Below are positions 55,300 to 58,049 of a DNA stretch of 64,000 nt, one piece after another. Under the pieces are notes generated by a model. The model made no database searches. It was not told the DNA's origin and saw only the letters and a list, made by a program, of their open reading frames with translations. The stretch comes from Streptomyces glomeratus. Its GTDB lineage: Bacteria; Actinomycetota; Actinomycetes; Streptomycetales; Streptomycetaceae. Both the position numbers and the translations under genes were made by a program. The stretch spans positions 1 to 64,000 of the forward strand of contig NZ_JAKEEB010000013.1 in assembly GCF_021462825.1 (NCBI RefSeq), given 5' to 3'. Each line of letters opens with the position of its first letter. The stretch's first letter is position 1.

Positions 55300-56232
55300 A
55301 TGCCAGCCAGCTATGCGTATCTCGGTCCCGAGGGCACCTTCACCGAGGTCGCCCTGCGCACGCTGCCGGAGTCCGCGACCCGGGAGCTCGTCCCGATGGT
55401 GTCGGTCCCGGCGGCGCTCGACGCCGTCCGCAACGGCGAGGCCGAGGCCGCGTTCGTGCCGATCGAGAACTCGGTGGAGGGCGGCATCACGACCACGCTC
55501 GACGAGCTGGTCGCCGGTGAGCCGCTGATGATCTACCGGGAGGTCCTCCTCTCGATCACCTTCGCGCTGCTGGTCCGCCCCGACACCAAGCTCTCCGAGA
55601 TCAAGACGGTCACCGCGCATCCGGCCGCACAGCCGCAGGTGCGCAACTGGCTGAAGGCCAACCTTCCGGACGCCGTCTGGGAGTCCGCCGCGTCCAACGC
55701 GGACGGCGCCCGGCTGGTCCAGGAGGGCCGTTACGACGCCGCGTTCGCGGGTGAGTTCGCCGCCGCGCGCTATGGCCTCGAGGCCCTGGAGACCGGCATC
55801 CACGACGCGGAGAACGCGCAGACACGCTTTGTGCTGGTGGGCAGGCCTGCTCGGCCGGCGGCTCCGACAGGCGCGGACAAGACCTCGGTCGTTCTGTGGC
55901 AGCGCGACGACCACCCCGGTGGCCTGCGCGACCTGCTGGGCGAATTCGCCGTCCGGGGTGTGAACCTGATGCTGCTCCAGTCCCGCCCTACCGGAGCGGG
56001 AATCGGGAACTACTGCTTCTGTATCGACGCCGAGGGTCATATCTCCGACCGCCGGGTCGCCGAGGCCCTGATGGGGCTGAAGCGGATATGTCTCCAGGTG
56101 CGGTTCCTCGGCTCGTACCCGCGTGCCGGCATCACGCCGGACGAGGTCCGGGTTCAACCGGCGGGGACGTCGGACGGCGAGTTCATGGAGGCCGCGGACT
56201 GGGTGGCCCGCTGTCAGGACGGCCGGTTCTAG
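55300..56232 (+). CDS. pheA: Prephenate dehydratase
   Basis: A 310-residue enzyme. The PDT domain spans ~1-185 (YLGPEGTFTEVALRTL, PIENSVEGGITTTLDEL, AQTRFVLVGRP with the essential TRF motif), and a C-terminal ACT regulatory domain follows from ~200 (HPGGLRDLLGEFAVRGVNLMLLQSRPTG) for phenylalanine feedback. It converts prephenate to phenylpyruvate. Monofunctional, without a chorismate mutase domain, as usual in actinobacteria. Confidence 0.95.
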   Translation: MPASYAYLGPEGTFTEVALRTLPESATRELVPMVSVPAALDAVRNGEAEAAFVPIENSVEGGITTTLDELVAGEPLMIYREVLLSITFALLVRPDTKLSEIKTVTAHPAAQPQVRNWLKANLPDAVWESAASNADGARLVQEGRYDAAFAGEFAAARYGLEALETGIHDAENAQTRFVLVGRPARPAAPTGADKTSVVLWQRDDHPGGLRDLLGEFAVRGVNLMLLQSRPTGAGIGNYCFCIDAEGHISDRRVAEALMGLKRICLQVRFLGSYPRAGITPDEVRVQPAGTSDGEFMEAADWVARCQDGRF

Positions 56233-56771
56233 CCAGGACCGCCGGTTCAGCGTGCCCGGTACTACCTGCGGATTTTCGTTGTCCACAGAAGTTATCCACA
56301 GGTTGGCTTCTCGATCTGGGGACAAGTCGACAACACGGCCCTTCGGGGTCGATAAATCTCTCCCGTGACCCCCCGTTCGTCTACCGCCGCGTTCGACACT
56401 GTTGTCCACCCGTTTCTCCCGATCAACTCTTTGAGGCGACCCCTTTGCACCCAAAAGTGCAAGTAGTGACGGTTTGAACAGCGAATTCCAGGCTCACCGG
56501 AGAGCCTTCGGAGTGATCAACTCCGGAGTCCACAGATCTTCCGCACAGCCTGTGGATAACTCCAGGAGGCCTGTGGACGCCTGTGGACAAGCCGAGCCCA
56601 AATCCCGCTGTCCACAAGGAATTCCAGTCAATGGAGCGTCCCCGGAACGCCTCGTTCCGGGGACAGTACCCCTTTTCTTGACACGCTACGTAATTGCCGC
56701 ACAACGGAACATGTTGCGCGGATCGATAAACGGAGTCGTAGGCCGCAACCCCGCACCGGTAGCCTTGAGGG
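56233..56771. promoter_or_regulatory. 539-bp intergenic region with a DnaA-box cluster
   Basis: No gene. Four perfect 9-mers: TTGTCCACA at 56279-56287 (+), TTATCCACA at 56292-56300 (+), and their complements at 56551-56559 and 56582-56590 (- strand). Three near-matches lie at 56402-56410, 56572-56580 and 56608-56616. The two groups face each other across ~250 bases of below-average GC. The serS promoter must also lie here. Confidence 0.85.
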
Positions 56772-58049
56772 GTGATTGACCTTCGCCTGCTCCGTGAGGA
56801 CCCCGACCGTGTTCGCGCGTCCCAGCGCGCCCGTGGTGAGGACGTCGCGCTCGTCGACGCCCTCCTCTCCGCCGACGAGCGGCGCAGGTCGTCCGGCGTC
56901 CGCTTCGACGAGCTCCGTTCCGAGCAGAAGGCGCTCGGCAAGCTGATCCCCAAGGCCACCGGAGACGAGAAGGCCGAACTGCTGGGGAAGGCGAGCCGGC
57001 TCGCCGCCGACGTCAAGGCGGCCGACGCCGAACAGAACGAGGCCGAGGAGGAGACCAAACGGCTTCTGCTCCAGCTCGGCAATCTGGTGCACCCCGACGT
57101 CCCGGTCGGCGGCGAGGAGGACTTCGTCGTCCTGGAGACGCACGGCACCATCCGCGACTTCGGCGCCGAGGGCTTCGAGCCCAAGGACCACCTCGAGCTG
57201 GGCGAGGCGCTCGGCGCGATCGACGTCGAGCGTGGCGCGAAGGTCTCCGGCTCGCGCTTCTACTACCTGACGGGCATCGGCGCCCTGCTGGAGCTGGCGC
57301 TCGTCAACGCGGCGATGGCGCGGGCAGCGGAGGCCGGGTTCACCCCGATGCTCACCCCCGCCCTGGTCCGTCCGCGCGCCATGGAGGGCACGGGCTTCCT
57401 CGGCCAGGCCGCGGAGAACGTGTACCACCTGGAGAAGGACGACTTCTACCTGGTCGGCACGTCCGAGGTCCCGCTCGCCGCGTACCACATGGACGAGATC
57501 ATCGACGCGGACCGGCTGCCGCTGCGCTACGCGGGCTTCTCCCCGTGCTTCCGCCGCGAGGCCGGGACATACGGCAAGGACACGCGCGGCATCTTCCGCG
57601 TGCACCAGTTCGACAAGGTCGAGATGTTCTCGTACGTCGACCCCGAGGACGCGGAGAACGAGCACAAGCGGCTCCTGGAGTGGGAGAAGGACTGGCTCAA
57701 CGCCCTGGAGCTGCCGTTCCAGGTCATCGACGTGGCGACGGGTGACCTGGGCGCGTCCGCCTCGCGCAAGTACGACTGCGAGGCCTGGATCCCCACGCAG
57801 GGCAAGTACCGTGAGCTGACCTCGACCTCCAACTGCGACGGCTTCCAGGCCCGCCGTCTGTCGATCCGCATGCGGGACGGCAAGAAGGTGCAGCCGCTGG
57901 CGACGCTGAACGGCACGCTGTGCGCCGTACCGCGGACGATCGTGGCGATCCTGGAGAACCACCAGCTGGCCGACGGCTCCGTGCGGGTGCCCGAGATCCT
58001 TCGCCCCTACCTGGGCGGCCGGGAGCTGCTGGAGCCCGTGGCCAAGTGA
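56772..58049 (+). CDS. serS: Seryl-tRNA synthetase
   Basis: A 425-residue class II synthetase with GTG start. The N-terminal coiled-coil tRNA-binding arm spans ~28-100. The catalytic core has motif 2 around [21 protein letters not shown] and motif 3 in [18 protein letters not shown]. It charges all tRNA-Ser species; three tRNA-Ser genes are in this window, one 868 bases downstream. Its stop overlaps the start of the HAD gene (GTGA). Confidence 0.97.

Follow-up and report, generated by a model that had tools for sequence, protein, structure and literature searches.

Three clusters of DnaA boxes outside oriC, named H69, H24 and D78, were reportedly described in Streptomyces coelicolor by Smulczyk-Krawczyszyn et al. 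in 2006; D78 is said to have bound DnaA best, and its deletion to have raised initiation. In the available text of three reviews, the DnaA-box clusters of S. coelicolor are described as repressing untimely initiation (PMC5742627, PMC10950094, PMC4585315). A single box is bound weakly by S. coelicolor DnaA, the high-affinity box of which is given as TTGTCCACA (PMC4285127, available portion). At the Streptomyces oriC, the DnaA complexes on two groups of boxes form a hairpin by joining over the spacer between them, and the long domain II and the dimerising domain I of Streptomyces DnaA are described as suited to distant sites (PMC5448010, sections available). In Escherichia coli, initiation is restrained by datA, a group of DnaA boxes remote from oriC whose internal spacing matters (PMC4585315, available portion); datA depends on an IHF site between the boxes and on hydrolysis of DnaA-ATP, according to the accessible passages of PMC4585315 and PMC5742627. 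Clusters close to oriC that repress initiation are described also in the Gram-positive Bacillus subtilis (Okumura et al. 2012, as cited in the available text of PMC5742627 and PMC10950094).

The window analysed here, a stretch of 64,000 nucleotides of S. glomeratus DNA, includes a 539-bp non-coding spacer between pheA and serS with a cluster of DnaA boxes at 56279-56616 (Table 1). Four boxes match the pattern TTRTCCACA perfectly and three with one mismatch, and the first-pass annotation had counted four perfect boxes and three near-matches. Its description of two groups on opposite strands applies to the four perfect boxes, while the strands are mixed among the weaker ones.

Table 1. Genes and DnaA boxes of the pheA-serS locus, with positions in the window.
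Feature	Position	Strand	Product or match to TTRTCCACA	Remarks
pheA	55300..56232	+	prephenate dehydratase; PF00800 and ACT domain	reading frame; the cluster sits past the 3' end of pheA
box A, TTGTCCACA	56279..56287	+	exact	at least 131/171 spacers have a box with no more than one mismatch 12-13 bp ahead of B
box B, TTATCCACA, left anchor	56292..56300	+	exact	followed by GG
box E, TTGTCCCCA	56317..56325	-	one mismatch	23-25 bp after B with one mismatch in 169/171 spacers
loop-interior box, TTGTCCACC	56402..56410	+	one mismatch	conserved block around it
box F, weak, GAGTCCACA	56526..56534	+	two mismatches	25 bp before C; two mismatches in 99/171 spacers, one in 55/171
box C, TTATCCACA, right anchor	56551..56559	-	exact	259 bp from B
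box D, TTGTCCACA	56582..56590	-	exact	at most one mismatch in 150/171 spacers
outer box, CTGTCCACA	56608..56616	+	one mismatch	conservation not clear
serS	56772..58049	+	seryl-tRNA synthetase; PF02403 and PF00587	separated from the cluster in six relatives

Like the clusters of the D78 type, the cluster comprises several DnaA boxes that lie in non-coding DNA near oriC but outside it. In S. coelicolor, serS reportedly lies on cosmid D78, and the cluster is probably the D78 cluster of that species; no paper giving the place of D78 was found in the literature searched. The kind of locus, and probably the locus itself, is already known. New as compared with D78 are the breadth of occurrence in the family, the mirror-image halves, the helical phasing between them, and the independence from serS, none of which was found in the literature searched, which included few subscription papers. 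The cluster is like datA as a group of DnaA boxes away from oriC that would restrain initiation and in which spacing would matter, and differs from it in sequence and in neighbouring genes. With the B. subtilis clusters it shares its place near oriC in a Gram-positive bacterium and the presumed repression of initiation. With the Streptomyces oriC it has in common the two groups of boxes, but not their quality or position.

The genome assembly (7.81 Mb in 125 contigs, the contig concerned being called C13) contains 63 exact boxes, as compared with 17 matches to the control pattern read backwards. Four exact boxes within 350 bp are found at two places only, in the pheA-serS spacer and at C13:154355-154567. 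A random scatter of 63 boxes is expected to yield ~2e-7 such clusters, and in 60 dinucleotide-block shuffles of 164 kb of the contig at most three boxes with no more than one mismatch fell within 400 bp, against seven in the real cluster. The cluster is not due to chance.

Adjoining dnaA is characteristic of oriC, and the cluster does not adjoin it: dnaA (Pfam Bac_DnaA) is located at C13:132301-134232, 76 kb away. Next to dnaA, at 134.6 kb of C13, ten one-mismatch boxes and no perfect one lie within 400 bp, and this stretch was taken as oriC because of its place and its boxes. The cluster, with its four perfect boxes, thus differs from oriC in box composition and lies 78 kb from it on the same contig, inside the chromosome segment around oriC.

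Three further groups of boxes were observed on C13. The second four-exact-box cluster, at C13:154355-154567 (L085 10355-10567), lies 20 kb across oriC, past a gene for a rhomboid protease. It was considered as a candidate for oriC and ruled out, since the rhomboid gene adjoins it and the box-rich stretch by dnaA is at 134.6 kb. A Pfam search of one minus-strand frame beside it gave no family; a small minus-strand gene there has the appearance of crgA, and the cluster is possibly the H69 cluster of S. coelicolor. At C13:98124-98386 (L082 14124-14386), 36 kb from oriC, one exact box and four with a single mismatch occupy ~260 bp. At C13:65353-65460 (L081 1353-1460), exact boxes TTGTCCACA on the plus strand and, 25 bp on, TTATCCACA on the minus strand face each other and are accompanied by a third, weak box. 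They are directly preceded by CTGGGGATCAAGTCGAC, a sequence similar to the E block conserved in the main cluster, and the gene downstream resembles kptA.

Conservation in Streptomyces was examined in two sets of genomes. Set 1 comprised the window and 80 serS loci from records that name an organism, the 80 best of 545, including one titled only 'Actinobacteria bacterium' and one metagenome bin; spacers were called by PheA anchoring, and PheA was found upstream of serS in 81/81 loci. The spacers of this set contain one (n=1), two (n=27), three (n=37) or four (n=16) exact boxes and from four to nine boxes with at most one mismatch. Altogether, 230 exact boxes are present in 45,560 bases of spacer, as compared with three in 458,944 surrounding bases. 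Set 2 consisted of 80 of the 151 genomes of the genus searched, mostly the less similar and less fragmented ones, and may share species with set 1; two to five exact boxes were found in each of its 80 spacers. The cluster is therefore present in 161/161 Streptomyces spacers examined, and conservation in related species, which had been set beforehand as a test, did not refute the first-pass interpretation. Further, the wide pair TTATCCACAG-N235-265-CTGTGGATAA was found in 324/393 Streptomyces genomes, as compared with 0 for the reversed control among the matches listed; the positions of these hits were not confirmed individually, and misses can reflect another spacing or a changed letter.

Among the other genera of the family, 66 genomes were searched, of which 64 gave a match, and 40 of these 64 were sampled. 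PheA lies directly upstream of serS in 29/40, with two to four exact boxes in the spacer, and not directly upstream in 11/40. In six of the latter, four from genus g3, one from g4 and one from g14, the cluster is located just past pheA and is followed by a minus-strand gene and then by serS, the distance from box C to serS being 1,018 to 1,802 bp. Judged by motifs, we take the inserted genes to resemble polysaccharide deacetylase (g3, g4) and a PAP2/lipid-kinase fusion (g14). The remaining five (two of g2 and three of g5; L278, L279, L285, L286, L287) have no cluster between pheA and serS, but between one and three exact boxes are found upstream of pheA, at ~1.0-1.3 kb; in these genomes the cluster may have moved or shrunk. 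No perfect box was found within 1000 bp upstream of serS in any of the 11 genomes, two of which have one weak box ~880 bp away. From other families, 59 genomes yielded 30 loci, of which five proved to be Streptomyces; the other 25 are devoid of exact boxes, whether the pheA-serS spacer was examined (10 loci, 0-226 bp) or the 1000 bp preceding serS (15 loci). Comparison with the other genera and families thus indicates a family-wide feature at this place, which travelled with the end of pheA when the gene order changed. The cluster is not conserved for the control of serS.

A common template fitted 171 of the 190 spacers, and 19 were dropped; the 171 all differ from one another in sequence. In the left half, A on the plus strand is followed after 12-13 bp by B on the same strand and, 25 bp further, by E on the minus strand; in the right half, the weak F on the plus strand is followed after 25 bp by C and, after 30-31 bp, by D, both on the minus strand. 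Hence, the two halves mirror each other apart from the A-B and C-D distances. Each half has one nearly invariant anchor, B or C, which reads TTATCCACAGG. In both anchors all columns other than position 3 and the last G are identical in 171/171 spacers, and in box B TTATCCACAG is constant apart from position 3 in 171/171. Selection of the boxes with at most one mismatch favours the apparent invariance, whereas the G that follows the box played no part in the selection. Position 3 is A in 164/171 spacers in B and in 149/171 in C, and G in 119/150 in D, despite TTGTCCACA being the sequence given for the high-affinity S. coelicolor box (PMC4285127). Further conserved blocks were found within the loop, i.e. 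the segment between the two anchors (109 spacers).

Two inverted repeats were observed inside the loop, TTGCAC-CCAAAA-GTGCAA at 56445-56462 and CGGAGT-GATCA-ACTCCG at 56509-56525, and the consensus of the 109 spacers contains related repeats. Between the cluster and serS, at 56638-56664, there is a long perfect hairpin, GTCCCCGGAACG-CCT-CGTTCCGGGGAC, which was not flagged by the terminator scan and is perhaps a terminator or a leader structure. A conserved RNA was considered and rejected: an Rfam search of the spacer gave no match at E up to 1, and the consensus fold of the 171 spacers rests mainly on the hardly varying complementarity of B and C and is therefore uninformative for RNA.

The distance between B and C is 256-261 bp in 109/171 spacers, 267-274 bp in 40 and 278-282 bp in 15, the other values (250, 290, 291, 294, 295, 302 and 312 bp) occurring in one spacer each. 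For counting of independent events, relatives were paired on a tree of pheA and the start of serS, which gave 85 pairs. The distance is unchanged in 38 pairs, differs by 1-3 bp in 25, and by at least 4 bp in 22, the sizes of the latter changes being 4, 9 (three times), 10 (twice), 11 (seven times), 12, 19, 22 (three times), 25, 32, 39 and 42 bp. At a period of 10.5 bp these 22 changes have a mean cosine of 0.646 (z 4.28). In the same pairs, the flanks used as controls gave a mean cosine of 0.097 for pheA to B (z 0.86, 40 changes) and 0.222 for D to serS (z 1.86, 35 changes of 4-60 bp). The phasing of the B-to-C distance is significant as compared with indels resampled from both flanks (p = 0.0006) and with uniform sizes (p = 5e-6). 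A scan from 5 to 17 showed the best period at 10.6, and with the cut-off varied from 3 to 6 bp z ranged from 4.0 to 4.6. These data showed that changes in the B-C distance come in whole helical turns.

The indels fall at varied points of the loop and hence do not reflect one slippery repeat. The mean cosine is lower, 0.48, for the eight changes of at least 15 bp, and among 11 changes near one turn two are not separable, by sign alone, from a plain preference for short indels. In an extended set, 18 of the 19 dropped spacers were re-added with distances read by hand (L061 was left out, as its box C is not clear) together with the six loci in which a gene separates the cluster from serS; the resulting 195 sequences gave 97 pairs and 24 changes with a mean cosine of 0.523 (z 3.62). 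Six genomes of one genus (L228-L233), which keep the distance at 244-246 bp with almost no variation, are out of phase with 260 bp, as are single genomes with distances of 241 and 243 bp. In L228-L233 the right half was also seen to differ, TTATCCACA on the plus strand following C after ~37 bp (48 in L230) and TTATCCCCA on the plus strand 21 bp further.

Given these data, we regard the locus as a datA-like chromosomal DnaA sink that would close a loop of ~260 bp, with a probability of about 0.6. This reading is based on the mirror-image groups at a phased distance, which match the needs of DnaA pairing, and on what the reviews state of such clusters. That the locus serves as a DnaA sink, with DnaA occupancy and an effect on initiation, appears likely; closure of a loop between the halves by DnaA is favoured with less assurance. 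DnaA would bind the two roughly mirror-image sub-clusters cooperatively, and DnaA on both sides would meet across the DNA loop and thereby be held away from oriC. At 78 kb from oriC the locus would be copied soon after initiation, and this early copying would double the sink and make a second initiation less likely. The cluster thus probably holds DnaA away from oriC instead of controlling a neighbouring gene. The first-pass annotation had proposed titration of the datA kind together with a possible control of serS by DnaA; the former fits the occurrence in all Streptomyces spacers, the enrichment of boxes in the spacer and the repression described in the reviews, while the latter found no support.

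Conservation and literature would equally suit a sink in which the two groups bind DnaA separately and no loop is needed, the spacing resulting from wrapping on a continuous complex of DnaA or nucleoid proteins or from a bias of indels. Blocks of the loop interior are conserved too, and the pooled flanks show a mild excess of indels near 10-12 bp (mean cosine 0.22). However, phasing is stronger between B and C than in the flanks, and the layout is a mirror with the anchors facing each other; a sink of this loop-free form is considered unlikely. Regulation of serS transcription by DnaA bound at the cluster is suggested by the location upstream of serS in 190/201 spacers of Streptomyces and the other genera, and the changes in the D-to-serS length are weakly periodic. 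Against it are the minus-strand gene that separates the two in six genomes, the lack of a perfect box in these six over the 1000 bp that precede serS, and the 25 box-free loci of other families; moreover, a consensus scan of the spacer for promoters and terminators, which covers one promoter type, gave nothing. Such regulation is improbable.

Slimmer still is the chance that DnaA bound at the clusters around oriC serves to bring them into contact with oriC or with one another and so shapes the origin region. The additional clusters on either side of oriC (C13:98124, C13:154355) and the pairing of Streptomyces DnaA complexes at a distance (PMC5448010, sections available) speak for such an arrangement, but the constrained distance that was found lies within the locus. 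A second replication start site or a DARS-like site for recharging of DnaA would accord with an AT-richer spacer, the GC content of which is 0.58, as compared with 0.67 in the oriC stretch (lowest 50-bp values 0.46 and 0.50, respectively). With dnaA and the box-rich oriC stretch 78 kb away, and the S. coelicolor clusters being described in the available review text as repressing initiation, this is very improbable.

ScbR2 is a receptor that answers antibiotics in S. coelicolor, in which its binding to this region has been reported (PMC4595836). In the available text of that paper, serS of this species (sco3961) is listed among the ScbR2 targets that gel shift confirmed; its fold change is only 0.947, and the 28-base site printed for serS is a motif prediction and not a footprint. 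With one mismatch, this site matches the loop in two sampled genomes, 101 bp after B and 159 bp before C; hence, S. coelicolor very likely carries the same spacer, as judged from this match. The site is present with at most six mismatches in 30/171 spacers, the best of 60 shuffled spacers having 11. In the window, the best match has 13 mismatches, which is no better than chance, and the site would therefore be a trait of some lineages. That ScbR2 bound inside the loop closes or opens it, and that the amount of DnaA free to start replication would thereby depend on antibiotic or butyrolactone signals, is a speculative and distinctly unlikely extension of the sink with a loop.

At issue is whether DnaA sinks act by the mere number of their sites or through a complex of defined shape. 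The helical phasing of the two halves suggests selection on shape at this locus, and with the cluster separated from serS it is no longer tempting to read it as a gene switch. If it is true that the ScbR2 site acts on the loop, antibiotic signalling would be linked directly to chromosome replication.
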